64,000 nt of DNA. Origin: an uncultured Bacteroidota bacterium. Lineage in GTDB: Bacteria; Bacteroidota; Bacteroidia; B-17B0; Aurantibacillaceae. Below, in pieces: positions 15,745 to 30,907 of this stretch; position 1 is the stretch's first letter; every line of letters begins with the position of its first letter. The stretch covers positions 1 through 64,000 of the forward strand of contig CAILKE010000040.1 in assembly GCA_903834765.1 (NCBI GenBank). The letters run 5' to 3'. The notes under the pieces were generated by a model, which was not told where the DNA came from, ran no database searches, and saw nothing but the letters and a program-made list of their open reading frames with translations. The position numbers and the translations under genes were made by a program.

Positions 15745-15760
15745 GTTAATCAAAAACTCT

Positions 15761-15814
15761 GTCACGTCGAGCGAAGTCGAGACGCTTATAGTTCTCGACT
15801 TCGCTCGAACTGAC
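15761..15814. repeat. Palindromic repeat with TCGAGCGAAGTCGAGA core
   Basis: A near-perfect ~22-bp stem runs from 15761-15782 to 15793-15814 around a 10-base loop. The core TCGAGCGAAGTCGAGA/TCTCGACTTCGCTCGA recurs at 26721-26875. It is non-coding, between gatA and mrp. It could form a hairpin in the transcript but lacks a T-tract. Confidence 0.85.
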
Positions 15815-15840
15815 AAAAAATTAATAAAAACAAAAATCAA

Positions 15841-16935
15841 ATGGAAATAACAATTGATAGCGTTATAGATGCTTTAAAATATGTAGACGATCCAGATCTT
15901 AAAAAAGATTTAGTGACTCTTGGCATGATTAAAGATGTTGTAGTAGATGGAAAGAATGTTGCCTTCACTGTTGTATTAACAACTCCTGCTTGTCCGATGA
16001 AAGACATGATACATAATGCTTGTGTGAACGCCATTAAACATTATGTAGATAAAGACGCTATTGTTAATGTGAACATGACGGCTAATGTAACATCCACACG
16101 AGATAAAGATTTAGGTACGTTATCACAAGTGAGAAATATTATTGCAGTTGCATCGGGTAAAGGTGGAGTAGGGAAGTCTACTGTATCAGCTAACTTAGCA
16201 GTAGCATTGGCAAAACAAGGCGCTAAAGTGGGTTTAGTAGACGCTGATATTTATGGACCATCTCAAACCATTATGTTTGATGTGCAAAACGAAATGCCTG
16301 GAAAAGGCGAATACGAAGGCAAACCAAAGATGGCGCCTGTAGAAAGTTACGGTGTTAAATTAAACTCTGTTGGTTTTTTAGCCGGACCTGATCAGGTAAT
16401 AGCTTTGCGCGGACCAATGGCATCAAAAGCATTAACCCAATTGTTTACAGATACCGCTTGGGGCGAATTGGATTATTTAATTGTTGATTTACCTCCAGGA
16501 ACTGGCGATATACAAATTACGTTATGTAGCTCCATTCCTATTACAGGAGCAGTTATTGTAAGTACGCCACAGGCAGTTGCGTTAGCAGATGCTCGTAAAG
16601 GAATTGCTTTATTTAAATTGCCAGCGCTCAATGTGCCTGTTTTAGGTATTGTTGAGAACATGGCTTATTTTACGCCAGAAGAATTACCAAATAATAAATA
16701 TTATATTTTTGGAAAAGATGGCGCAAAAAATTTAGCAGCCGAAATGAATTTACCTTTATTAGGACAAATACCTTTGGTGCAAAGCATCCGCGAATCGGGA
16801 GATGCAGGCCGTCCGGCTATTTTACAGGAAACTACTCCGCAAGCATTAGCCTTTAGAGAAATGGCTCAAAACATAGCGCAACAAGTTGCTATATTAAATG
16901 CGAATAAGGTTAAGGAGAAAGTGGCTACAGCTTAG
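15841..16935 (+). CDS. mrp: Mrp/ApbC-type P-loop ATPase, iron-sulfur cluster carrier
   Basis: The 364-residue protein has an N-terminal MIP18/DUF59 domain (~1-85, with a TTPACPMKD segment). A MinD/Mrp-type ATPase follows, with the deviant Walker A SGKGGVGKST (~residues 104-113), a switch region DADIYGPSQ, and VDLPPGTGD. Members transfer Fe-S clusters to apoproteins. The C-terminal CxxC that binds the bridging cluster in many homologues is absent: the segment reads ENMAYFTPEELPNNKYYIFG. I think this is common in Bacteroidota, but have not tested it. A hairpin terminator follows. Part of its 3' end is duplicated at 23167-23285. Confidence 0.93.
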   Translation: MEITIDSVIDALKYVDDPDLKKDLVTLGMIKDVVVDGKNVAFTVVLTTPACPMKDMIHNACVNAIKHYVDKDAIVNVNMTANVTSTRDKDLGTLSQVRNIIAVASGKGGVGKSTVSANLAVALAKQGAKVGLVDADIYGPSQTIMFDVQNEMPGKGEYEGKPKMAPVESYGVKLNSVGFLAGPDQVIALRGPMASKALTQLFTDTAWGELDYLIVDLPPGTGDIQITLCSSIPITGAVIVSTPQAVALADARKGIALFKLPALNVPVLGIVENMAYFTPEELPNNKYYIFGKDGAKNLAAEMNLPLLGQIPLVQSIRESGDAGRPAILQETTPQALAFREMAQNIAQQVAILNANKVKEKVATA

Positions 16936-16952
16936 TTTAAATTACAAACATC

Positions 16953-16987
16953 AAAAAGCTCCTTCAAATTTTTGAGGGAGCTTTTTT
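16953..16987 (+). terminator. Terminator after mrp
   Basis: AAAAAGCTCC pairs with GGGAGCTTTTTT around a short A/T loop. The T-run ends 8 bases before the 3' end of the convergent response regulator gene, so it may serve both strands. Confidence 0.9.
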
Positions 16988-16994
16988 GTTGGAT

Positions 16995-17729
16995 TTAAAA
17001 CAAATTCAATTTCTGTAATAAATCTTGGCGACTATTTTCACTTACTGGAATTTCTTTTCCATTTATTAAAACCTCTTTAGGATTTACTTTTTCAATATGT
17101 TTAAGGTTCACTAAAAAGGAACGATGTGTTCTGAAAAAATTAAATAGACTTAATTTTTCTTCAACTACTTTTAAGGTGTAGCTTAAAATGTATTTAGTTT
17201 GCTTTGTATAGATTATACTATAATTGTCGCAGGCTTCGGCATACAATACATCAGCGTAATTTACTTTTACCAAGCTGTGTTTGTCTTTAATAAAAAAGTG
17301 GTCGTTCACTAAAAACGAATCAGAAAAGGATACTTGTGTATTTTCTTTTTGCAAATTAAAACTATGCCAAGCTAAATTTATTTGTGTTTGAATATCGCTT
17401 GCTTTAAAAGGTTTTACTATAAATCCAAATGGGTTTGTCAGTTTAACTCTTTCTAAAGTTTTAGAATCTGTATTTGATGAAATAAAAATAAATGGTTTTT
17501 GTTGATGTTGGTTGATATAATGAGCTAAATCAATTCCATCTGGCCCATCGCCTAAATTTATATCTAATAAAATTAAATCAGGATTTTCTTCTTCTAGCAG
17601 TTCTTTCGCCTCTAAAAAATTATCTGCTATTCCGCTGCATATAAAACCCGCGTCTAAAACGTATTGTTCAATATGATCAGCAATTAAAGGCTCGTCTTCA
17701 ACTATTGCAATTTTTAAATTAGTTGTCAT
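16995..17729 (-). CDS. LytTR-family response regulator
   Basis: The 244-residue protein has an N-terminal receiver domain with the acidic pair E11/D12, phosphoacceptor D56 (LILLDINLG) and a conserved Lys in IVKPF. The C-terminal LytTR DNA-binding domain (~residues 145-244) includes YAEACDNYSIIYT, FFRTHRSFLVNLKHIEKV and IPVSENSRQ. LytTR domains bind direct repeats in promoters with beta-strands. Its start overlaps the end of the sensor kinase gene by 11 bases, so the two are translationally coupled and form one two-component system. Target genes are unknown. Confidence 0.95.
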   Translation of the reverse strand: MTTNLKIAIVEDEPLIADHIEQYVLDAGFICSGIADNFLEAKELLEEENPDLILLDINLGDGPDGIDLAHYINQHQQKPFIFISSNTDSKTLERVKLTNPFGFIVKPFKASDIQTQINLAWHSFNLQKENTQVSFSDSFLVNDHFFIKDKHSLVKVNYADVLYAEACDNYSIIYTKQTKYILSYTLKVVEEKLSLFNFFRTHRSFLVNLKHIEKVNPKEVLINGKEIPVSENSRQDLLQKLNLF

Positions 17730-19494
17730 ATAATTTAAAGTTAGTGATTTTTAATTGAATGCTAGTTCCGTTTGATGAAGAATTTTCTGTTATTTCAGCA
17801 CGTAATTTGCGAGATAAGGATTTAATTAATTTAGTTCCAAATGCAGTGCCTGATGTATTTATAGATTGTTGTTTGCCAACTCCATTATCAGTAACCGCTA
17901 ATATTAAACCTGTAGTTTGTTTTGCTAAACTGATGGTGATTTTAGGTTGTGTAATATTTATAAATGCATACTTGCAGGAATTAGTAATCAATTCTGCTGT
18001 AATTAAACCAATTGGAATAGCAGATTCTAAATCCATATCTAAATCATCAATATTACATTGTAAATCAATAGAACTTGGATTTACTGTCGCCGAAAAGTTC
18101 TTCAAAATATCAAAGGCTAGTTCTTGCAAGTAGGTGTTAATTTTTATACCTCTAATATTATCAGATTGATATAGACGCTTATGTATTAATGAAATAGCAT
18201 TAATACGACTTAAACTATCTTCAATTACTCTAATTGATTTTTCATCAGATAAATCTCTTCCTTGCAAATCTAAAATAGAAGATACCATCTGTAAATTATT
18301 TTTTACACGATGGTGTATTTCGCTCATCATTATTTCTTTTTGTTCTAAATTAGCTTGTATGGCTTCGTTTTTTTGCTCTAATAAATGATTTACTTTTTGT
18401 TTATTTATAAAAAGGAGTAAGGTAAAAACTAAAGTGATTAAAATTACTACAATCACAACTACTAATAATAGGCGTTGTTTGGTGTTAGCCTCATCGTCAA
18501 TTTTTTTCTGCAATTCTATTTCCTTTACCTTTTGTTGATTTTTCTCTACGTCAAATTTGGCCTGCATTTCGGCAATAGCATCGTTTTTATCTGCAGTAAA
18601 TATACTATCCTTAATTGATGAGTAATTTGTAAAACTTTCATAAGCATTTTTATAATCTCCCATTAAGAATAAAATATCTGCCATGGTTTCGTGACAAAAC
18701 ATTTCTCGTTCTAATGCGCCAATTTGCTTACTAATGGCAATGCTTTTTTCTGAGTACATTTTTGCGTCGTCATATTTTTTTAATTCTTTATATACGATTG
18801 CTAACGAATTATAGGTCGAAATTAGATTAAATGAATTGTTTGATTCGATGCTATATTTTTCTGATTGTTTATAATACTCAATGGCTTTTTCGTAATCTTT
18901 TTTCGCAAAATAAATCTTCGCTAGTGAGTTGTAGGTCGGTGATAAACCTGCAATATTTTTTTCTTCTTGATAGATGTTTAGTGCTTCTAAGTAATTTTTT
19001 TCAGCTTCATCATTTTTGTTAATATACGTATATACAATGCCTTGATTGATTAGTACTCCTGCTAATTCTTTTTTGTTTTTTGTTTTTAAATACAAATCAA
19101 TAGCTTTTTGATAGTACATCTGTGCATTATCGTATTGATATTGAAAAAAGTACGATATCCCCATTTGAGAATAGCATTGGGCAATTTTGTTAGTGTCTTT
19201 TAGTTCTTCAAATAGTTTAATAGTTGAAATAAATTGTTTTATGGCTTCAACCGAATTGCCTTTAATGTCTTGGCATACAGCTATATTATTACTTGACTCA
19301 GCAATACCTTTTTTGTAGTTTATATTTTTAGAAAGTTGAATAGCTTTATTAGCTAAAACAATAGCAGAATCTGTTTGCTTTTCACTTAAACTGTCGGCTA
19401 AGTAATTTAATCTATCAATATTTTTTAATTCCTGCTGTGATAGCATAGAATTGGTAAAACATAGTATTAGAATAAGGTTTAGTAAGTAGCGCAT
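17719..19494 (-). CDS. TPR-containing sensor histidine kinase (HisKA_2 type)
   Basis: The 591-residue protein starts with a signal or anchor segment (residues 1-20). About seven TPRs follow (~25-300), then a coiled linker and a transmembrane helix (~340-361, RLLLVVVIVVILITLVFTLLLF). The HisKA_2 dimerisation domain has EIHHRVKNNLQMV with the phosphoacceptor His near residue 393. The HATPase domain has NSCKYAF, DNGVGKQ and GTKLIKSL. The periplasmic TPR region presumably senses a protein or peptide ligand. Kinase and regulator overlap by 11 bases. This architecture is widespread in Bacteroidota. Confidence 0.93.
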   Translation of the reverse strand: MRYLLNLILILCFTNSMLSQQELKNIDRLNYLADSLSEKQTDSAIVLANKAIQLSKNINYKKGIAESSNNIAVCQDIKGNSVEAIKQFISTIKLFEELKDTNKIAQCYSQMGISYFFQYQYDNAQMYYQKAIDLYLKTKNKKELAGVLINQGIVYTYINKNDEAEKNYLEALNIYQEEKNIAGLSPTYNSLAKIYFAKKDYEKAIEYYKQSEKYSIESNNSFNLISTYNSLAIVYKELKKYDDAKMYSEKSIAISKQIGALEREMFCHETMADILFLMGDYKNAYESFTNYSSIKDSIFTADKNDAIAEMQAKFDVEKNQQKVKEIELQKKIDDEANTKQRLLLVVVIVVILITLVFTLLLFINKQKVNHLLEQKNEAIQANLEQKEIMMSEIHHRVKNNLQMVSSILDLQGRDLSDEKSIRVIEDSLSRINAISLIHKRLYQSDNIRGIKINTYLQELAFDILKNFSATVNPSSIDLQCNIDDLDMDLESAIPIGLITAELITNSCKYAFINITQPKITISLAKQTTGLILAVTDNGVGKQQSINTSGTAFGTKLIKSLSRKLRAEITENSSSNGTSIQLKITNFKLYDN

Positions 19495-19604
19495 AATCTG
19501 TGACTATAAATATAACCTCATTTACTCAAAAAGGGAAGGTATTCGCCCTATTTTTTTTATGTTCTTACCCTAATAGTGCAATTTTAGATCATAAAAATAC
19601 TACA

Positions 19605-21770
19605 ATGAAAAAAATCGCATTATCATTTTTCGCTATCGTTCACATGCTAACTTCATCTGCTCAAACTCCAGCTTTGGATTGGGCAAAAGGAATTGGAGGG
19701 ACCGGGCAAGATAACGGAAAAGGGATGGTTTTAGATGCTATAGGCAATGTTTATACTACAGGTTTTTTTACAGACACTGTTGATTTTGATCCAGGAGTTG
19801 GGGTTTATAAATTAGGCGCTGGACCAGTTGGGGCAACCTTTATTTCCAAATTAGACGTCAATGGTAATTTTGTTTGGGCTAAAAGTTTCAATGAAGTAAT
19901 TACAACAGGTGGAGGAAACAGTTATGGTTTTGCCATCGCAATTGATGGTTCTGGTAATATATATACAACAGGCCAATTTTATGGAACCGTGGATTTTGAT
20001 CCAGGAGTTGGAGTTAATGTTTTAAATGGGATTGATGATATTTTTGTTTCTAAATTAGATGCTAATGGAAATTTTATTTGGGCAAAAAATGTCGGTGGCG
20101 CAGGATCAGATTCTGGTTCATCAATAAAAGTTGATGCATTTGGTAATGTTTGTGTTGGTGGCTATTTTACAAATACGGTTGATTTTGATCCTGGTGCATC
20201 CGTAACTAATTTAAGTTCTACATCGAGAGATATTTTTATTTTGAAGCTAGATGCCAACGGTAACTTCATTTGGGTAAAACAAATCGGAGGATCCAGTACA
20301 GATGATTTAAATGCGTTATCGGTTGATGCTGCAGGTAATATCTTTGCTACTGGAACGTTTAATAGCATATGTGATTTTGACCCAAGCGCTACAACATTTA
20401 ATTTAAGTTCAAATGGAGCAAGAGATGTTTTCATTTCGAAACTAGATAATAATGGAAGTTTAGTATGGGCAAAGAGTATAGGAGGTACTGGTCAAGATTA
20501 TGGTTATGGAATAACATTAGATGTTGCGAATAATGTATATGTTGTAGGTGAATATGTTAATACCGTTGATTTTGATCCAAATATTTCTACAACCAATACA
20601 GTAATATCTAATGGCGGGAAGGATGCTTTTATTTTAAAATTAAATTCAACAGGAGATTTTGTAACTGTAACTACTTTTGGAAGTGCATTAGGTAATGATA
20701 ATGCCACTTCTATTTTCGTGGATGTATTAAACAATCAATTTATTACAGGATCTTTTACAAACACAACTGATTTCGATACCAGTCCTAGTACTTATACTTT
20801 AACATCTGTCGTTGCCACTACTTATATTTTAAAGTTAGATGCTCTTAATAATTTTTCATGGGTTCGCAAACTTGGTGGAATTGCAAGTAGCAGCAGTAAG
20901 GGAAATTCAATTTTAGTTGATGCCCTAGGATTCATTTATACAACAGGCTTTTATTCGAATATTTTAGATGTAGACCCTAATTTGCCAGAATTTATTTTGC
21001 CTAATAATGGGGGTAGTGATTGCTATATACATAAAATGGGCGTATGTTCGATGCCAACAATAGCAATTAATACAACAACTTCGTTCGACCAATGTTTAAC
21101 CAATGGACTTACACTTACCGCATCTGGCACAGGAGTAATTTTATGGTATGACATGCCATCCTCAACAACATCCCTGAGCGCAGGAAATACATTTACAACT
21201 ATACCGCCATCTGCAGGTTCCTATACCTTTTATGCGGAAAATAATACTTGCATGGCGAATAGTAATAGAACCCCTATTACTGTTACAGTGCATGATTTAG
21301 CAACTATAAATATTGTATCAAGTAATACACTTGCGTGCCTTGGAGTATCTGCAACCTTAACTGCAACTGGCGCAAATACTTATACGTGGAGTAATTCTTC
21401 TACTGCGAGTTCTATCGTTGTTACTCCAACTACAACTACTTTTTATTCAATAAATGGTAACGATATATTCGGTTGCCCAGGTTATGCTACGTTTACCCAA
21501 TCTGTCTCTTTATGCACAGGTATTAATCAGTTAGTAAATGAATCATCCGTTTCTGTATTCCCTAATCCGTTTACAGATTTAATAACCATTAAAAATTCTT
21601 TTGAGAATTCTAGTATTATGATTGTTGATGTTTTAGGTAAAGTAGTTTTTGAAAAGCAAATAGTATCAAACGAAACAGAACTTGATTTGAGTCATTTAAA
21701 TGTAGGTTTTTATCAATTGTTTGTAAAAGGAGATGACAAATCGTATACTCAAAAAATAGTTAAACAATAA
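19605..21770 (+). CDS. T9SS-secreted SBBP-type beta-propeller protein
   Basis: I start at ATG 19605 because MKKIALSFFAIVHMLTSSAQ is a signal peptide; the frame stays open to 19500 without adding sense. The 721-residue product has seven copies of a ~55-residue repeat. Each holds a D..GN.Y.TG.F..TVDFDPG block, a F.SKLD.NG.F.W core, and often IGG(T/S). Seven repeats suggest a seven-bladed propeller (residues ~22-470). An Ig-like module (~570-640) matches those of the giant protein at 1-4232. The C-terminus is a T9SS sorting domain (VFPNPFTDLITI ... YTQKIVKQ). Secretion to the surface is expected; ligand unknown. The next gene follows after 13 bases. Confidence 0.88.
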   Translation: MKKIALSFFAIVHMLTSSAQTPALDWAKGIGGTGQDNGKGMVLDAIGNVYTTGFFTDTVDFDPGVGVYKLGAGPVGATFISKLDVNGNFVWAKSFNEVITTGGGNSYGFAIAIDGSGNIYTTGQFYGTVDFDPGVGVNVLNGIDDIFVSKLDANGNFIWAKNVGGAGSDSGSSIKVDAFGNVCVGGYFTNTVDFDPGASVTNLSSTSRDIFILKLDANGNFIWVKQIGGSSTDDLNALSVDAAGNIFATGTFNSICDFDPSATTFNLSSNGARDVFISKLDNNGSLVWAKSIGGTGQDYGYGITLDVANNVYVVGEYVNTVDFDPNISTTNTVISNGGKDAFILKLNSTGDFVTVTTFGSALGNDNATSIFVDVLNNQFITGSFTNTTDFDTSPSTYTLTSVVATTYILKLDALNNFSWVRKLGGIASSSSKGNSILVDALGFIYTTGFYSNILDVDPNLPEFILPNNGGSDCYIHKMGVCSMPTIAINTTTSFDQCLTNGLTLTASGTGVILWYDMPSSTTSLSAGNTFTTIPPSAGSYTFYAENNTCMANSNRTPITVTVHDLATINIVSSNTLACLGVSATLTATGANTYTWSNSSTASSIVVTPTTTTFYSINGNDIFGCPGYATFTQSVSLCTGINQLVNESSVSVFPNPFTDLITIKNSFENSSIMIVDVLGKVVFEKQIVSNETELDLSHLNVGFYQLFVKGDDKSYTQKIVKQ

Positions 21771-21783
21771 ATATATAATTACA

Positions 21784-23166
21784 ATGAAAAAAAGAGTATT
21801 CATAATTTCAATTATTATCACTAGTATTATTAGTGAATTGAAATCACAAACAATTCCAGCATATCCTAGTATGGATGATGCCTTAGCTAAAGCTAAAAGT
21901 TCTGATTTTTTAAGAGGGCTATTGAAATTAGACTATAATGCTGATGTTACAAAATGCACTTTCTCTAAGAAATATTTTAGTAATACAGAGGAGAAAGAAG
22001 TTGATGGTTATTTTGGAAAATACACTAGCGACAGATGCGCTCAACTTTTCTCAATTTCAATGCCCTATGATAGATGCATAACCTACATAACCGTAACTAC
22101 TCCAAAAGATGCTAACGGCACTATTTATCAAGTACCAGTTGGAGTTAAATACTCTCGTTTAAAAAATGATGTATTAACAAACCAATGGGAATATTATAAT
22201 GTGGAGTTAGGAAGCCCAAGGGTTATTGGCGGAATTGCTAATGATAGTAAAGCGAAAATTGCATTGTTGGTGGGTGGTATAAAAAAATTCCCACTTAAAA
22301 ATGGCCAACTTTATGGCGGATTAGATGAAACAGGGTTTGAAGGAAGTGTCGAAGCATTAAAACATTTTTCAAGAATAGATTCTATTTATTGTAAAGGAGA
22401 AAAAATTGAGAATGCCAAAGAACAAACTTGGTTTTTTGAAATTAAAGGGCAGGAATATAATTCTAATACGGGAGATATTATTGATGATGCTACATTAACA
22501 GATAATTACATTGTAAATGTTGCTTTACAAGTGAAATTAGAAAATGCTAAATGGAATATTATTGATTTAATGATTAGAGATAATCATGGAAATGATAGAT
22601 CTAATACAAAATATAATGGCCCTTTATTAGCGTGTTTTGGACAAGTAAACTTTGATAAAATTTATAAAAACACAGCATTCTATCAGTTTGCTCCAGATAC
22701 AGATGGCGCATTGAAATTAAAAGCAAAGCAATTGCAACAGGCGATTGAAAACCTTAGCTATAACGAAGAGAAAGACTTAAAATTATTAGTGCAATTTTTT
22801 GATCCCGAAAATAATCCCGAAAAGATGGCTTTAGATTTATTTAAAATTTTGAAAGAAGCTAAAGACAAACAGTGCACAGTACATGAAATTAATGTATATG
22901 AAAGTTATTATGGAAAACCGGGCTCTGGTTCAACTGAAAATTTCATTAAAATTAATGCTGAATTTAAAAGAGAATCGTGCTTAACAAAACCTGAACTGAA
23001 AGAACAATACAAAGCAGCCGGTATGAATGCCAAGCTGATGAAGCAAACTGGAGGTGACATTTCTTCAAGGGCATTGTTTCAAAATAATAGCATTAAATTG
23101 GTAATTAGAGACAATACTTTAATTTTAATTTCTACTCCAACCTTGAGCGAATTAATTTCTTTTTAA
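21784..23166 (+). CDS. Secreted protein of unknown function, 3' end abuts an mrp fragment
   Basis: The 460-residue product has a signal peptide (residues 1-22, ending ELKSQ) and no T9SS sorting domain. The mature part has scattered Cys (TKCTFSKK, SDRCAQLF, YDRCITY) and a mixed alpha/beta appearance. A segment PGSGSTENFIKINAEFKRES lies near the C-terminus. I do not recognise a family. It begins 13 bases after the beta-propeller gene and is probably cotranscribed. Its stop codon (23164-23166) directly precedes a degenerate duplicate of the mrp 3' end. The natural C-terminus may therefore have been cut or replaced at that junction. Confidence 0.75.
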   Translation: MKKRVFIISIIITSIISELKSQTIPAYPSMDDALAKAKSSDFLRGLLKLDYNADVTKCTFSKKYFSNTEEKEVDGYFGKYTSDRCAQLFSISMPYDRCITYITVTTPKDANGTIYQVPVGVKYSRLKNDVLTNQWEYYNVELGSPRVIGGIANDSKAKIALLVGGIKKFPLKNGQLYGGLDETGFEGSVEALKHFSRIDSIYCKGEKIENAKEQTWFFEIKGQEYNSNTGDIIDDATLTDNYIVNVALQVKLENAKWNIIDLMIRDNHGNDRSNTKYNGPLLACFGQVNFDKIYKNTAFYQFAPDTDGALKLKAKQLQQAIENLSYNEEKDLKLLVQFFDPENNPEKMALDLFKILKEAKDKQCTVHEINVYESYYGKPGSGSTENFIKINAEFKRESCLTKPELKEQYKAAGMNAKLMKQTGGDISSRALFQNNSIKLVIRDNTLILISTPTLSELISF

Positions 23167-23285
23167 TTATATTTTTGGAAAAGATGGCGCTAAAAATTTA
23201 TCAGCCGAAATGAATTTTCCTTTATTAGGACAAATACCTTTGGTGCAAAGCTAATAATGTTAAAGAGAAAATAGCTACAGCGTAA
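23167..23285 (+). pseudogene. Internally deleted duplicate of the mrp 3' end
   Basis: Bases 23167-23251 match mrp 16701-16785 at 82 of 85 positions. Bases 23253-23285 match mrp 16903-16935, including the stop region, at 27 of 33. The 117 bases between them in mrp are replaced by one base. The fragment reads YIFGKDGAKNL then a changed tail, and a stop follows QIPLVQS. It has no start codon and is not functional. Nothing else is recognisable up to the TonB receptor gene at 23440. Confidence 0.9.
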
Positions 23286-23439
23286 ATACCTCTTGTATTT
23301 TATTTTTTGAAAATAATTTTCTATTATTTTCAAAAGTAAAAGTTCTTTCGTGATACTATAATTTGGTGCTTCAATTTTTATCCGAGCAGAGTAACTAAAT
23401 ATTTGATTTTACCTTATAATATTTCACTGTTTATAATTT

Positions 23440-25635
23440 TTAGAAAGAGGCTCCTATACTCACAAATACTGTTCTAACGTTTCCTGGCATAATACCAGGC
23501 CCAGGATAACCGCTAGCTCTTCGTGTTGCATATTTTTCATCTAAGATATTATTTACACCTGCTTTTAAGTTATAGTGATTCATAAATCTGTAGGAAAGAG
23601 AAGCGTCCATTACCTCATAGCCAGAGAGTTTTCCAATAGTTCCTGTTGAGTTTGGTGTTTCAGTATTTGTTGCATCAGTAAACACATCTCCAACACTACT
23701 TAATTGAAATGTTGCAGAAAATCCTTTCAGATAATACGTTGCGCCATAGCGGTGAATATATTGAGGTGCATTTTCTACGCGCTTGCCTTCAATGGATTTG
23801 CTTGGATCGCTCGTAATAGCTGGATTATTCCATTTTACATATTTTGCATCAATCAATGAGTTAGATGCAAAAAAGCTGATGTTGCCAAATTTGAAATTGT
23901 CGGTGAAAATTTTAATTGGATTAATTTCGATGTAAGATTCAACACCTTTGCTTACAGAATTACCAATGTTAGTTTTAAATGGTGCTCCGTTTTGAGTTAT
24001 TGTTCCAATGCGGTTGTCGTAATTAAGGTAAAACACACCCACATCAAAACTTAAATAGTTTTTCACACTACCTCTATATCCAAAATCTGCATTGAAGCCA
24101 CTTGCGTCTTTTAAATTTGGATCAATGATTTCAGTAGTAGCAGAAGGTGTTAATTCGGAAAAAGTAACAGGGCGGTATGCTAGTGAATAGTTGGCATAGA
24201 TATTTGTTTTTTCAGTAACCTTCAATTCGCTTCCTATTCCGTAAAGTAGAATTTGTCGTACCTTTTTATTACGATTTATTGTACCTGTTTGACTAGTGTT
24301 AATATATCCCTCACTTTCATTTTCAATATAATCAAAGCGAATGCCTGGCACAACTTTCAAGCGATTACCAATTTGAAAAATATTTTCGGCAAAGGCTGCA
24401 TAGTTTGTTGTTGTAAATTCTAGTGAACGCCCATACTGAGGATTAGTGAGCGTTAAATCAAAATTATAACCTGTTGTTCCGGCACCAAGTTGATTTCTTT
24501 TTGTGTTGCCACTATAAGCTCTTAGGCCTCCTGCAAAAATATTTTCCTTACCAAAAAATTTATATTTAACAGATGCTCGTACTTCGGTTCCGTAATTTTT
24601 ATAATTATCACAGTCTACTTGTCTTGCATTATACTCAAGAGTTGTTGGATTAATGCTATCTTTAAATATTATTGCTTTGGTGAAACCAACACTATTGCGT
24701 TCAGCAATTGTTGTAAATGATTTTATTTGTATACTGATTGATGATGAAATATCATATTTAATAGTAAGCGATGCAACATTGAATGGAGCACTAAACCAAT
24801 TTCTTTCTCTAAATGATTGCCTGTGATTATCGTCAAACTGTGCATCAGTGAGTCCTCCCGGCTGTTGACTTTTGTAACTCATATTAGTATACTCTCCTTC
24901 AAGTTTTATTTTTTTTGTAAGTTGATAGTTTACTGAAAAATATCCCGTGTAAATAGTGTAACGACTATTTTTGCGCCATCCTTCGGCTGCACGTTGATGT
25001 ATGAATCCATAATAGGATAATTTTTTATACGTACCACCAATTGCATTGTAGGAATTAAATAAGCCATAAGAACCTATTGTTTCTTGCGTTTCAAAGGATA
25101 TTGGTTTGTTTGGATTTCCTTTTTTAATTTGGTAATTGAGCACGCCCCCAAATTGCGGACCGTATTGCAAAGATGCTGCTCCACGGATGACTTCAATTTT
25201 CCTCATCGCTTCCATTGGTGGAGTATAATAGGATTCAGGGTACCCAAAAACCTCCGAACTAATATCATACCCATTTTGTCTAACATTAAATTCCCATGAG
25301 CGATTCGGACTTAATCCTCTTGCCGCTACTCCCGCTTGAATTCCTGAACCATCATTTTCCCAAATACTCATACCAGGTACTTTTGCAAAAACCTGACGCG
25401 TGTTGTTAGTGCTTAGGTCTGCATTTATTTTATCCAATTGTATGACTTCTGTTTTTTTACCTGCATAAATAACATTCTCCTTCATGTCAGGCATGCGCTC
25501 TATTTCACTTAAGAGATTGTTTTCCTTTATCACAACTTCCTCTAAGGATAATACTTTTGTTGTATCAATTTGCTGTGAGTAGGATGTTAAAAATGCTATA
25601 ACACCTAAAGACATAAGAAGAAGTGATTTTTTCAT
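23440..25635 (-). CDS. TonB-dependent outer-membrane receptor, FecA-like
   Basis: The 731-residue protein has a signal peptide (1-20) and no N-terminal carboxypeptidase-like domain. Its plug domain (~55-170) contains FAKVPGMSIWEND, VAARGLSPNRS and the typical MRKIEVIRGAASLQYGPQFG. The beta-barrel ends in FVSIGASF with a terminal Phe. The plug most resembles FecA-type receptors for ferric dicitrate and similar siderophores. In Bacteroidota this label covers several ligands, so the substrate is uncertain. No SusD partner and no iron ABC transporter are adjacent. Confidence 0.9.
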   Translation of the reverse strand: MKKSLLLMSLGVIAFLTSYSQQIDTTKVLSLEEVVIKENNLLSEIERMPDMKENVIYAGKKTEVIQLDKINADLSTNNTRQVFAKVPGMSIWENDGSGIQAGVAARGLSPNRSWEFNVRQNGYDISSEVFGYPESYYTPPMEAMRKIEVIRGAASLQYGPQFGGVLNYQIKKGNPNKPISFETQETIGSYGLFNSYNAIGGTYKKLSYYGFIHQRAAEGWRKNSRYTIYTGYFSVNYQLTKKIKLEGEYTNMSYKSQQPGGLTDAQFDDNHRQSFRERNWFSAPFNVASLTIKYDISSSISIQIKSFTTIAERNSVGFTKAIIFKDSINPTTLEYNARQVDCDNYKNYGTEVRASVKYKFFGKENIFAGGLRAYSGNTKRNQLGAGTTGYNFDLTLTNPQYGRSLEFTTTNYAAFAENIFQIGNRLKVVPGIRFDYIENESEGYINTSQTGTINRNKKVRQILLYGIGSELKVTEKTNIYANYSLAYRPVTFSELTPSATTEIIDPNLKDASGFNADFGYRGSVKNYLSFDVGVFYLNYDNRIGTITQNGAPFKTNIGNSVSKGVESYIEINPIKIFTDNFKFGNISFFASNSLIDAKYVKWNNPAITSDPSKSIEGKRVENAPQYIHRYGATYYLKGFSATFQLSSVGDVFTDATNTETPNSTGTIGKLSGYEVMDASLSYRFMNHYNLKAGVNNILDEKYATRRASGYPGPGIMPGNVRTVFVSIGASF

Positions 25636-25821
25636 TGATTACTATATTTAATTAATGTTCTGGTTTTAATTTTCTGAGTGCAAAGAAACTTTACGTTAAT
25701 AAATTCCACAATACCTGAAAAGTGGTATTTAGAATTATTCCAATTAAGGTATTTAGACTTCACTCAAAAACTCAATTTTACTTTTTATTTTCTTTAAGAT
25801 TGATTAATAAATATTTTAAAA

Positions 25822-25946
25822 ATGAAAACTAAAAAAACGAATTAGATGTAGATTTCATTGGAGGTATTGGCGAATTATCGCTTGAAGAAGAGAAAGCATT
25901 AAGCAATTATTTTAAAAAGAAAAAGTTAAACCTAAATGTTCCCTAA
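25822..25946 (+). pseudogene. Small acidic-basic ORF with a probable one-base frameshift
   Basis: ATG AAA ACT AAA AAA is followed, in the +1 frame, by ELDVDFIGGIGELSLEEEKA, then LSNYFKKKK and a stop at 25944-25946. The two parts join if one A is added to the A7 run at 25831-25837. The combined ~41-residue peptide resembles short Bacteroidota proteins with DVDFIGG and EEEKA.S..F blocks, by my recollection. As written, translation stops after MKTKKTN. Either the gene is dead or the base is a homopolymer error. The rest of 25636-26042 shows only A/T-rich sequence and a weak AATACC/GGTATT hairpin at 25710-25729. Confidence 0.55.
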
Positions 25947-26096
25947 GCGCCATTTAACAATATAAGCGCCTGTTTAAAATTATTGGTATAACTAAGAAAT
26001 CTCTTTTAGTGTAATATTTTTTCAGAGTAAAAAATATCCATCCTATTCTTTAAAATCAATCTTTACAAGCACTTCATTTTCCCTGTTAATTAAATC

Positions 26097-26642
26097 CTAA
26101 GGCGCATTGTAACCTAAGTAAACGAATTTATTATTGTGCGTTATGCTATGCTCACTTAATTTTTGTTTGAGTTCGGTTTCTTTATTTAAAATTATTTTTT
26201 CATTGGCATATCCTCCAAACTTAACCACAGCATAATAACCTTCATCCGAATAATGTAACTCAATATTTTTATCATTAGGTTTTGGTAATTCTTCCATGGT
26301 GTATTTGGACGGCATCACAAAACTCATTGAACTACCATCACTATTTTTTTCCATATGAACAGGCGAAGTCATCGAAATTTTATCTGAATGCTGATTACTA
26401 CCAAAAATATAATCTGCAAGTTTTCGAAAATTAGTATTGTTGTTACCTGTGTATGTTTCAGAAGGAGATTTTAAGGTTGCCAAAATAGCTTTTGGGTAAA
26501 AACGAATTTCAATTTCTTGCATTGTTTTTACTAATCTATAATTTTGGCGCTCTGTTTTTTGTTTTAAGGTATAAGACATAACAACTGCTAAAATAGAAAT
26601 TATGATTAAAATTATACCGATTGCTTTTAAAAATTGTATCAT
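26097..26642 (-). CDS. SOUL-family heme-binding protein with a premature amber stop
   Basis: I start at ATG 26642 (MIQFLKAIGIILIIISILA, a membrane anchor). The soluble domain contains IEIRFYPKAILAT, FRKLADYIFG, ISMTSPVHME and VVKFGGYANE, typical of the SOUL/HBP family, which binds heme. The frame ends at TAG (26097-26099) after YLGYNAP. Beyond that stop the same frame continues DLINRENEVLVKIDFKE to a TAG at 26043-26045. This is the family's usual C-terminal ending (YN.P..l.NR.NEV). The stop therefore removes the last ~17 conserved residues. The product may still fold, or the gene may be decaying. Confidence 0.85.
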   Translation of the reverse strand: MIQFLKAIGIILIIISILAVVMSYTLKQKTERQNYRLVKTMQEIEIRFYPKAILATLKSPSETYTGNNNTNFRKLADYIFGSNQHSDKISMTSPVHMEKNSDGSSMSFVMPSKYTMEELPKPNDKNIELHYSDEGYYAVVKFGGYANEKIILNKETELKQKLSEHSITHNNKFVYLGYNAP

Positions 26643-26720
26643 AATAAAAGTATTTAAAATAGGTAAAAAAAAGTTACACTTAACTGGTAAATGCAATAGC
26701 ATTTATAATTCAAACTTATT

Positions 26721-26875
26721 GTCAGTTCGAGCGAAGTCGAGAACAATGTAGCATCTCGACTTCGCTCGATGTGACACACCTCGACTTTGCTGGATGTATG
26801 ACATCTCGACTTCGCTCGATGTGACACACCTCGACTTTGCTGGATGTATGACATCTCGACTTCGCTCGATGTGAC
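26721..26875. repeat. Cluster of palindromic TCTCGACTTCGCTCGA repeats with a 50-bp tandem duplication
   Basis: GTCAGTTCGAGCGAAGTCGAGA-type sequence at 26721-26742 pairs with TCTCGACTTCGCTCGATGTGAC-type sequence at 26754-26775. Two identical 50-bp units (26771-26820 and 26821-26870) then follow, each holding a degenerate CCTCGACTTTGCTGGATG and a canonical TCTCGACTTCGCTCGA. The core is the same as at 15761-15814. Any reading frame here is an accident of the repeat. The element lies between the SOUL gene and the restriction-modification gene. Confidence 0.9.
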
Positions 26876-26898
26876 AAATGAAAAAATTAAATACTACT

Positions 26899-29337
26899 TT
26901 ACTCTTTTAAAAATTCGTACTCGTAAACTTTAGGTTTTATTTTGTTGGCTAAAATAGTTAAATTGTTTCTTAATTCACTTATGAGTTTGGAATAAATGGC
27001 ATCCGTGCTTTTTGAGTTCATACGACCTGCATCGTTGCGGCCTTGAAAATATTCTCTAATATCATATAAACTAGCGTTTACATTAACGCCGTTTTGCGCG
27101 TGGTAATATTTCCATAATTCTCTGCCGGCATCAAAAACTGCTGTGGCTTCTTCCGAAAATAAAAGTGGTGCATTATTACCCACAGCCATTTCTTTTTTAC
27201 TTTCAAATAAGGTGTTTACTGCCGTTGGCTCTTGCTTTATTTTGCCTTTTATAAAATCCGTCATAAAATTACTGGCAAATTTTTCTTGAGCATTTACTTC
27301 ATGCTCTGTAAAAGGAATCCAATTATTTGTACCAAACTTTGCTTGTATGTTGTTTTTTTCGTGAAATAATAAAAAAGTAAAACAATCATTTTGAAATTTA
27401 ATATTAGATTTCCATTTTTCGTTTGGATTTAGAAATTGATCATTATGATTAATCCAATTATGCGCAAATACTTTTCGAACAGTAAAATAAATTGCAACAG
27501 GAATTATATTATCATTGTTAATCCAAATTCCTCTTGGATTTGGTAATTGTTCTTTTGTGTTTATGATATAAACAATGTTGTTGTGCGCAAAATCGTTTCC
27601 ATTAATTCCATCCATAAAACCAACATTGTTTTCGTTAGTTCCTTTGTAAACAGAAATAAACTTGTTTATATATTGACTTTTTTCGTGAGAAAAGAAAAAT
27701 CTTTTTGTTCCGATGAAATCTGCTTCCTCGTCATAAATATCAATTTTAATTTCATCACTATTTGAATTTATATCTGTATTCCAAATTTTAAAACCTATCG
27801 GAAATTCACCTTTTACGTTATCAAAAGTATATGCAGGAACGATAAATCCATTTTGAAATTGTGCTTTGAAATTATATCTGAAACTCTGAAATGCAGAACC
27901 ATTGAAAATTTTTAGTGTTGAAAAATTACCAATTAAACAACCTTTAATTTCTTTGTAAATGCGAATTAAAAATTGAGCAAATAATTCTCTTCCTGCTGTG
28001 CCTAATATAGCATTGTACTTTGTATGAGTTTTAGATAGATTTACACCAACTTTACCTTTTTCCGATTTACTTGAAACTTCTGCGTAAGGAGGATTTATAT
28101 AAATGATAAGCTTCTTACATTTGTTTTCATCATTAATAATGGCTTGTAAACTTTGTGGTAGTTTGGTAAACTCATCATTTAAAAAATCAAACTGAAACAC
28201 ATTATTTTTTAGAAGGTTTGCGCCATGGTCAATACGCTCGTGGATTACGCTAATATCGGCTTGGTCTAAGGTGCTGGCGTAAATATTATACTTGTTGGTT
28301 AAGCCTGCCAAAAGGTTTCCTGTGCCTGCGGCGCAATCCCAAATGTAATAATCCTCTTGCCAGTTTTCGCCTAAATAATCCGTCAAGTATTTTTGCGAAA
28401 GTTCAACCCAAATACGCGGTGTAAAAAAGGCTCCTTTACGTTCTCTAATATCTTGCGGCACTAATAAATCTCTGCGTTCAATAATGTATTCTTGAAACTC
28501 TTTTATGGGCGGGCGTTTGTAGCGGTTCCAAAAAAGTTGATAGGTTTCTTTTACTTTAATGTTGATGGTGGCATCAAACATTTGCTTGATGTTTTCTTTG
28601 GCTATTTTATAACCTTGGTTGTTATACACCACAAATAAATTATCTCTTAAGCTAAGATCATCTTCAATGGTTTGGGTGTCTTTGTCATCCACAAAAAGGT
28701 CGGCTAAATAAAAGTCGTTATCAAATATGTTTGCCTTTTTTAAGTCGTCCCAATTAACATCAATAATTGGTTTAACAATTTCGAGCCAACGCAAATAAAT
28801 AGGAATAAAATTATTTTTATCAATTTTAATTTTAGCGGTTTCGGTGGCTTTTGCAATATTATTTGCAATAAAATGTTTGAGTTCTTTTTCGTCTTTTCCG
28901 TAATCGTAAACCGTAGTGTGTTGAGCAAGCGTGGCTTCAATACGTTGTTTAATGAGTTTAAACTCTTTTGTGTCGTGATTGCTTGGTGTTACATTCCAAT
29001 TAAAATCGTTCAAATAAAAAATATCTTGAATGCTGATGTACGAAATAAAAGCAATTTTTTTAAAGTCGAACGCGCCTAAAAAAGCGGGTGGTAATGTTTT
29101 ATCAAAGGTTCGTGCTTTACCTATAGTGAGCACGAGTTGCACAAACATGGTTGGGATATCAAAATTGCCGGTTTTTGCTTCTGCCCAAAGTAGCGGTGTT
29201 CTTCCAAAAATAGAATCTTGTTTTGGGAAAACGGTAAAATCAATATTTCCTAAAATTTCGGTTGTATCAAATTGTTTAAACCAATCGGTACCAACTTTAT
29301 TTTTTAATTCTTCTTCTCTTATATTTTTGTACTTCAT
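26899..29337 (-). CDS. Restriction-modification fusion enzyme (type IIG-like), N6-adenine methyltransferase
   Basis: The 812-residue protein joins a nuclease-like N-terminus to a methyltransferase. Residues 33-55 give a PD-(D/E)xK pattern (D33 in NIDFTV, then E53-A-K55 in LLWAEAKTG). A helical linker with RDLLVPQDIRERKGAFFTP leads to SAM motif I DCAAGTGNLL (~333-342) and catalytic motif IV NPPY (~414-417). The C-terminal region (~500-812) has no motif I recognise and presumably reads the target sequence. Such single-chain enzymes both methylate and cut at an asymmetric site. No separate specificity subunit or other defence gene is adjacent. The recognition site cannot be predicted. Confidence 0.82.
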   Translation of the reverse strand: MKYKNIREEELKNKVGTDWFKQFDTTEILGNIDFTVFPKQDSIFGRTPLLWAEAKTGNFDIPTMFVQLVLTIGKARTFDKTLPPAFLGAFDFKKIAFISYISIQDIFYLNDFNWNVTPSNHDTKEFKLIKQRIEATLAQHTTVYDYGKDEKELKHFIANNIAKATETAKIKIDKNNFIPIYLRWLEIVKPIIDVNWDDLKKANIFDNDFYLADLFVDDKDTQTIEDDLSLRDNLFVVYNNQGYKIAKENIKQMFDATINIKVKETYQLFWNRYKRPPIKEFQEYIIERRDLLVPQDIRERKGAFFTPRIWVELSQKYLTDYLGENWQEDYYIWDCAAGTGNLLAGLTNKYNIYASTLDQADISVIHERIDHGANLLKNNVFQFDFLNDEFTKLPQSLQAIINDENKCKKLIIYINPPYAEVSSKSEKGKVGVNLSKTHTKYNAILGTAGRELFAQFLIRIYKEIKGCLIGNFSTLKIFNGSAFQSFRYNFKAQFQNGFIVPAYTFDNVKGEFPIGFKIWNTDINSNSDEIKIDIYDEEADFIGTKRFFFSHEKSQYINKFISVYKGTNENNVGFMDGINGNDFAHNNIVYIINTKEQLPNPRGIWINNDNIIPVAIYFTVRKVFAHNWINHNDQFLNPNEKWKSNIKFQNDCFTFLLFHEKNNIQAKFGTNNWIPFTEHEVNAQEKFASNFMTDFIKGKIKQEPTAVNTLFESKKEMAVGNNAPLLFSEEATAVFDAGRELWKYYHAQNGVNVNASLYDIREYFQGRNDAGRMNSKSTDAIYSKLISELRNNLTILANKIKPKVYEYEFLKE

Positions 29338-29379
29338 TAGTTATGTTTGTTCGTGTTTATGGTGTTTTTTTTCGCCGCT

Positions 29380-29439
29380 GTTGGTGTTATTACCAATAGC
29401 TATTTTATACCAGTCTTACTTGTTGGTTATAACACCAAC
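29380..29439. promoter_or_regulatory. Paired hairpins upstream of the restriction-modification gene
   Basis: GTTGGTGTTATTACCAA (29380-29396) and TTGGTTATAACACCAAC (29423-29439) are inverted copies with one mismatch. Each arm is also a small hairpin (TTGGT/ACCAA stems with 6-base loops). They lie 43 bases upstream of the restriction-modification start codon. They could be operators for control of that gene, or a small mobile palindrome. The rest of 29440-29615 shows nothing. Confidence 0.5.
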
Positions 29440-29615
29440 AAGGGCGTGAAATTGTATTGCTTAAATATAAAAAATATTAATTACTTATTTATCTGATTAA
29501 ATGTATCATTTCTAGGTTCATTTTCTTTTTTTAGCGTTTCTCTTTCAAAGTTCTACATCAATCTGTTTTCTTATTAAAATTTTATTCAACACATTATAAT
29601 TGTAAAACACATCCT

Positions 29616-29623
29616 TATCTTTG
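29616..29623 (+). promoter_or_regulatory. Bacteroidota -7 box (TATCTTTG) for aspartate kinase
   Basis: TATCTTTG lies 15 bases before the ATG at 29639. No good -33 TTG is present at the usual spacing. Confidence 0.55.
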
Positions 29624-29638
29624 TTTAAACAATAAATT

Positions 29639-30907
29639 ATGCAAGTATTTAAGTTTGGCGGGGCATCGGTAAAAGACGCTGATGGTGTAAAAAATGTAGC
29701 GGAGGTTCTAAAACAATTTCCTCACGAAAAATTATGTGTGGTTATTTCTGCCATGGGAAAAACTACCAATGCTTTGGAACGATTAACAAAAGCTTTTTTT
29801 TATAAAACAGAAAATGCCGAAGAAATTTTAGAAGAAATAAAACAAGCACACTATACTATTTGTAAAAATTTATTTGCAAATCCTTCTCACGCTATATACA
29901 CTGATTTAGAAAACACCTTTGTAGAACTGCATTGGGCAATAGAAGACGAGCCAACTCATGCGTATGATTTTGAGTATGATCAAATTGTAAGCATAGGCGA
30001 AGTGCTGTCAACTAAAATTGTTTCTGCCTATTTAAATGATATAGGCATTACCAATAAATGGATGGATGCTCGTGGATTAATACAAACCGATAATACATAC
30101 CGCGAGGGTAAAGTAGATTTTGAATTAACAGAGGCGTTAGTTAAAACTCAAATAGAACCTCAGTTAATTATACATAGCATTGTTGTAACGCAAGGTTTTA
30201 TAGGCGGAACGTCCGAAAATTTTACAACAACCTTAGGGCGCGAAGGTTCTGATTACACCGCATCTATTTTAGCTTATTGTTTAAATGCGCATAATGTCAC
30301 TATTTGGAAAGATGTTCCCGGAGTATTAAACGCAGATCCAAAATGGTTTTCGCATACCAAAAAAATTGATGAACTTTCTTATCACGATGCCATTGAATTA
30401 ACGTATTACGGCGCAACCGTTATTCATCCAAAAACCATCAAACCCTTACAGAATAAACAAATTCCGTTATATGTCAAATCTTTTTTAAATCCTAAGGCAA
30501 GCGGCACAGTTATAAAGGATGGAGAAAACCGTTTAAATATTCCTTCTTATATATTTAAAGTAAATCAAGTTTTAATTTCAATTCAACCAAAAGATTTTTC
30601 GTTTATTGCCGAAGATAATTTGAGCGACATCTTTGAATTGTTTTCCAAACATGGCGTCAAAATTAATCTCATGCAATTGTCTGCCATTAGTTTTTCGGTT
30701 TGTTGTGATGATGATACCGAGAAAATTAAATTATTAGTTGCTGAGCTTCAACAAACATTTAAAGTTTTATATAATTCTAATTTAGAATTAATGACCGTGC
30801 GTTATTATACTCCCGAAACAATTGATTTATTAACTAAAAACAAAGTAATTTTATTGGAACAAAAAAGTAGATTTACAGTGCAAATGGTAATGAAAAATGA
30901 AGAATAA
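29639..30907 (+). CDS. lysC: Aspartate kinase
   Basis: Aspartate kinase makes aspartyl phosphate, the first step to Lys, Thr, Met and diaminopimelate. The 422-residue product starts with the kinase signature KFGGASVKD. It has the catalytic-core motifs TTLGREGSDYTAS, WKDVPGVLNADPK and YYGATVIHPKTIKP. Residues ~310-422 form ACT-type regulatory modules (ISIQPKDFSF, FSKHGVKINLMQLSAISF), where end products would bind. It is monofunctional: no homoserine dehydrogenase domain is fused. corA follows after 37 bases. Confidence 0.94.
   Translation: MQVFKFGGASVKDADGVKNVAEVLKQFPHEKLCVVISAMGKTTNALERLTKAFFYKTENAEEILEEIKQAHYTICKNLFANPSHAIYTDLENTFVELHWAIEDEPTHAYDFEYDQIVSIGEVLSTKIVSAYLNDIGITNKWMDARGLIQTDNTYREGKVDFELTEALVKTQIEPQLIIHSIVVTQGFIGGTSENFTTTLGREGSDYTASILAYCLNAHNVTIWKDVPGVLNADPKWFSHTKKIDELSYHDAIELTYYGATVIHPKTIKPLQNKQIPLYVKSFLNPKASGTVIKDGENRLNIPSYIFKVNQVLISIQPKDFSFIAEDNLSDIFELFSKHGVKINLMQLSAISFSVCCDDDTEKIKLLVAELQQTFKVLYNSNLELMTVRYYTPETIDLLTKNKVILLEQKSRFTVQMVMKNEE

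Follow-up and report, generated by a model that had tools for sequence, protein, structure and literature searches.

In the icd gene of E. coli, phage 21 and the element e14 supply a replacement 3' end and displace the old one. In the T6SS clusters of Vibrio cholerae, effector 3' ends and immunity genes have been displaced, and for this displacement, as for the orphan 3' ends of Rhs loci, homology-facilitated illegitimate recombination is given as the underlying process (PMC5361080; Kirchberger-type work). This type of recombination has been measured in Acinetobacter, Streptococcus, Pseudomonas, and E. coli (PMC3240628; references in PMC5361080); it is known from several transformable species and, at low frequency, from conjugation in E. 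coli (PMC3240628).

Here, we describe a locus in an uncultured Bacteroidota bacterium at which the 3' end of the housekeeping gene mrp recurs behind a block of four other genes. The window (that is, the whole 64,000-nucleotide stretch of DNA that was analyzed) belongs to the genome designated G000; the other G-numbers denote the genomes with which it was compared, most of which are MAGs in which missing context is common. Coordinates of the fragment are given against the intact mrp of the window, and the features of the locus are collected in Table 1. In our reading, homologous recombination within the mrp of a recipient probably delivered a new gene end together with the block, displacing the old end downstream.

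Table 1. Features of the mrp locus in the window (positions and strand in the 64,000-nucleotide stretch).
Feature	Position	Strand	Remarks
mrp, ApbC/NUBPL-type P-loop iron-sulfur carrier, intact, 364 aa	15841..16935	+	Pfam ParA/NUBPL and FeS_assembly_P
mrp 3' segment duplicated downstream	16700..16935	+	16700 is the breakpoint common to the three carriers with the fragment
rho-independent terminator of mrp	16953..16986	+	present in the G005 downstream copy; native version in G011; not in the window's copy
block gene 1: LytTR response regulator, 244 aa	16995..17729	-	Pfam
block gene 2: TPR histidine kinase, 591 aa	17719..19494	-	Pfam
block gene 3: SBBP beta-propeller protein, T9SS sorting tail	19605..21770	+	Pfam scan from 19614
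block gene 4: secreted-looking protein without assigned function, 460 aa, not truncated	21784..23166	+	
displaced mrp fragment, first part (mrp 16700-16785)	23166..23251	+	83/86 identical
displaced mrp fragment, last part (mrp 16902-16935)	23252..23285	+	27/34 identical, beyond a 116-bp deletion at a shared GC

The sequence-only reading described the fragment as a partial, internally deleted, and decayed copy of the mrp 3' end, a description borne out by a repeat search and by longer copies in G005 and G011, with small corrections to its boundaries. The first segment, given as 85 bases from 23167, is an 86-nt direct repeat at 97% identity (by repeat search and base count) that starts one base earlier, at the last A of the TAA stop codon (23164–23166) of the 460-aa gene; the second segment, given as 33 bases, is 34 bp long by base count. 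The internal deletion, described as 117 bases reduced to one, is real and comprises exactly 116 bp (mrp 16786–16901), joined at a GC present at both 16784–16785 and 16900–16901 with no residual base. The T at 23252 is the base found at that site in G005, G011, and several other relatives (GCTAATAA), and thus no odd leftover base is required at the joint. An 86-nt match at 97% is far above chance expectation, and the fragment is the sole other match to the mrp 3' end in the G000 genome; the mrp 3' end is the source of the fragment and, in our reading, the recombination target.

Two relatives, G005 and G011, share with G000 a common order consisting of the gatA region, mrp, the LytTR regulator, the TPR kinase, the T9SS propeller gene, the 460-aa gene, and an mrp 3' copy that begins in all three at the same mrp base (16700). 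Neither relative has the internal gap: the downstream copy of G011 is nearly full, extending to 16913 or beyond, and that of G005 runs through the terminator to 16987. The mrp fragment, which had been proposed as a feature to be sought at the same site in relatives, thus lies behind the 460-aa gene in both, and the claim of a duplication reaching across the intervening genes is upheld by the same junction with longer copies. Among the 79 family genomes with mrp, partial copies of the gene were found only in G000, G005 (two), and G011. An assembly artefact was judged unlikely, since the junction is common to three separate MAG assemblies. As read from these alignments, the 119 bp of the window is a decayed version of a structure common to the carriers.

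The fragment is non-coding, and one of its changes (TTA to TTT) also occurs in the right copy of G011. Its retention for a function, either as a terminator or as an antisense regulator of mrp or the 460-aa gene, would accord with the terminator that ends the copy in G005 and G011; given that the copy in the window lacks both this terminator and the 116 bp, that two of the three differences in its first part change conserved-motif residues, and that G019 has the block with no fragment at all, we regard such a function as highly improbable.

It had further been suggested that the duplication may have cut the 460-aa gene, in which case its product might have a longer C-terminus elsewhere. This does not hold, since the protein of G019 stops at the same residue, with unrelated sequence and no mrp behind it, and a distant homologue in G008 (26% identical, 474 aa) ends at about the same point; truncation of the gene is ruled out by these two proteins. 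The 460-aa protein was found at 91–92% identity in three other genomes of the genus (G005, G011, and G019, whose public titles identify them as MAGs of freshwater Bacteroidota) and on the partial contig L054, and a search of 395 genomes of the class yielded one further partial homologue outside the genus (G066). No viral carriers of the 460-aa gene were found, and the 460-aa protein, a 175-aa protein considered below, and an 812-aa protein gave no matches to defence or curated family models. Orthologues of the LytTR response regulator were restricted, among 87 family genomes, to the four block carriers and G017. In G008, the homologue of the 460-aa protein lies away from mrp and has a TPR histidine kinase, a LytTR regulator, and a T9SS-type protein as neighbors (L050:954–4969), and on the basis of this neighborhood the four block genes may constitute a functional module. 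On L054 (879–3044), the propeller gene beside the 460-aa gene resembles the version in the window and the kinase resembles that of G011, indicating that the block is itself a mosaic.

The history of the block departs from that of its hosts. By rpoB, G000 is closest among the genomes compared to G001 (94.5%), which lacks the block, and the carriers G000, G005, and G011 are 87.6–88.1% identical to one another. The blocks of G005 and G011, on the other hand, differ at only 24 of 3600 bases (99.3% identity over 3.6 kb), as against 82.4% identity upstream of mrp and in the first part of mrp; the remaining block is a patchwork of 74–99%. The inserted genes are thus off the species tree, with 99.3% identity between G005 and G011 versus 82–88% elsewhere. 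The block has passed between species, and the comparison is most plainly read as a recent exchange. The duplication proposed from the sequence alone was an incomplete account: what entered was a block of four genes accompanied by a replacement end of mrp, and this block travels between species.

The surroundings of mrp in other genomes bear on the same question. In G016 and G007, mrp is followed directly by lysC with nothing between, and in five non-carriers (G001, G004, G006, G009, and G013) a gldM-like gene stands between the two, so that relatives with an unoccupied site exist; G019 has the block plus a gldM-like gene in the mrp–lysC interval with no mrp fragment, and in G017 the regulator and kinase come immediately after mrp, the 460-aa gene being absent. 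An old tandem duplication of the mrp 3' end and the block in an ancestor, followed by disappearance of the second block copy and, later, of the whole arrangement from the non-carriers through repeat recombination, would be permitted by the direct repeats, would fit the shared junction as a single ancestral event, and would agree with the presence of mrp, regulator, and kinase in G017. We nevertheless consider this history unlikely, as it leaves unexplained the 99.3% block identity of G005 and G011 beside 82% in adjacent sequence, the jump in identity inside mrp, and the non-carrier-like right end of G011 (both described next), and as several non-carriers keep the gldM-like gene directly behind mrp.

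Within mrp, ancestry changes along the gene. Between the left copies of G005 and G011 there are 48 differences in the 280 sites of 16500–16779 and 5 in the 142 sites of 16780–16921 (p 3e-5), and the mrp of G000 resembles that of G001 up to about 16850, after which it has the bases shared by the carriers; the switch sites thus lie at about 16780 in G005 and G011 and at about 16850 in G000. Carrier-shared bases that are rare in non-carriers number six in 16786–16921 and two in the preceding 945 bp (p 8e-5), and the shared-base signal of the carrier trio is the highest of 165 trios. In a tree of the 5' part of mrp, G000 pairs with G001 (94/91), and in a tree of the distal 3' part the copies of the carriers fall together (83/81, a moderate value from a short region), with the right copy of G011 among the non-carriers. 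Placement of the left and right copies of G011 in one clade was rejected (p 0.008); a grouping of G000 with G001 in the 150-bp 3' part was not rejected (p 0.19). The intact 3' part of mrp therefore has an ancestry common to the other carriers and off the species tree, with moderate tree support and strong site counts: the gene end has moved with the block, and in the window the part of mrp beyond about 16850 looks to have been delivered together with it. The right copies of G000 and G005 resemble the left copies, and the tail behind the block of G011 is non-carrier-like; it is in G011 alone that the fragment is seen to be the native end of the recipient.

The two halves of the fragment differ in divergence from the intact mrp of the window, with 3 of 86 differences in the first part versus 7 of 34 in the last (Fisher p 0.005), from which conversion of the first half had been suggested. 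The difference is real; conversion, however, is not needed to account for it, as these two parts diverge unevenly in the same way when intact mrp genes of different species are compared (4/86 and 16/34 differences between G000 and G001, 7/86 and 11/34 between G000 and G003), and the tail of mrp is thus simply fast-changing. The last part of the fragment is unlike the sister genome G001, matching it at 20 of 34 positions. The first 86 bp match the genome's own mrp at 83 positions, the fragment of G005 at 77, and that of G011 at 75, so that a later copy exchange in G000, or a separate origin, must be allowed; on these counts, a later exchange between the two mrp copies in G000 is possible.

A second insertion is found in G005 (L035:3354–4115), between mrp and the response regulator, and comprises a 175-aa gene, a 54-aa ORF with a GG motif, and an mrp 3' fragment beginning at 16842. 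The intact mrp at this insertion ends in KANSV instead of KVATA, and the terminator has been lost. Proteins of the 175-aa family, which match no family model, have five representatives in G005 and single ones in G000, G001, G004, G006, and G018. In the window, a remnant of the end of the 175-aa gene and a small ORF, 85% identical to G005, lies at 25794–25930 between a TonB receptor gene and a SOUL gene. The second insertion in G005 is an independent event of the same layout with another breakpoint (16842 versus 16700, 142 bp apart), which favors homologous recombination anchored in mrp and argues against a fixed attachment site.

This breakpoint bears directly on the possibility that the block is what remains of an element that integrated site-specifically at an att site in the mrp 3' end and carried the replacement end with it. 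Such elements leave, on their upstream side, an intact gene whose 3' end has been replaced and, on their downstream side, the original end, and the first breakpoint is identical in three species. Set against this are the second event in G005 at a distance of 142 bp, the absence of a tRNA nearby, and the scatter of the ancestry switches between about 16780 and about 16850, which is typical of homologous crossovers and unlike a fixed att core. Moreover, no tyrosine or serine recombinase was found among the block and neighboring genes scanned with Pfam. Site-specific integration is thus quite unlikely.

Under homologous recombination within mrp, the donor would have been a relative carrying the response regulator, the kinase, the propeller gene, and the 460-aa gene behind its mrp; the arrangement of mrp, regulator, and kinase in G017 may resemble that of this donor. 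Once donor DNA had entered the recipient, by whichever route, a crossover in the 3' end of the recipient's mrp would have brought in the last part of the donor gene, its terminator, and the following genes. At its other end, the donor DNA would then have joined the recipient's mrp at 16700, presumably by an illegitimate join in this first event, stranding the old 3' end behind the 460-aa gene. With mrp 3' sequence now flanking the block on both sides, an ordinary crossover in each of the two mrp copies could carry it from one species to another, and such double crossovers would keep the recipient's own end at the right, as in G011. In G000, the stranded copy, being functionless, would later have lost 116 bp between short repeats. 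Weighing against displacement are the moderate support of the 3' tree, the closeness of the G000 fragment to its own mrp, and the presence of the block without a fragment in G019.

The interval from mrp to lysC (16995–29639 in the window) varies from genome to genome almost throughout the genus, being empty or occupied by a gldM-like gene, the block, a TonB receptor region, or other sequences. Within it, at 26752–26876, a 25-bp repeat of the CTCGACTTCGCTCGA type stands in a five-fold tandem array, and a related inverted pair lies at 15760–15822 behind gatA. Somewhat speculatively, the mrp end might be a standing, integrase-free landing site in the genus, with mrp-flanked DNA acting as a portable cassette that is moved between species by RecA recombination alone and can be cleanly lost again; we put this forward as a tentative idea, which, if true, would account for the variability of the interval.

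Compared with the described systems, the mrp case is a homology-assisted insertion with displacement, a known type of event and not a new kind of element, and it alters no general picture. Its value is as a readable fossil of gene entry without a mobile element, in which the junction, the replacement end, the displaced native end (in G011), a second breakpoint (in G005), and subsequent decay can all be followed, and displaced gene ends of this sort could serve to find similar events in other genomes. As with phage 21 and e14 in icd, a housekeeping gene has received a replacement 3' end and its old end has been displaced, although here no integrase was found among the genes scanned, there is more than one breakpoint, and the crossovers are scattered across shared sequence. 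As in homology-facilitated illegitimate recombination, one homologous and one non-homologous join would be combined in a way that can partly duplicate the anchor; unlike the measured cases, the mrp case is deduced from genome comparison, and its right-hand joint is now homologous and reusable. The resemblance to the V. cholerae T6SS clusters lies in a homology anchor in a conserved gene, new downstream genes with the old 3' end shifted behind them, and repeated events that stack up (two in G005); the differences are that the anchor, mrp, is a housekeeping gene whose product is nearly unchanged, and that the passengers are a two-component system and secreted proteins instead of effector-immunity pairs.
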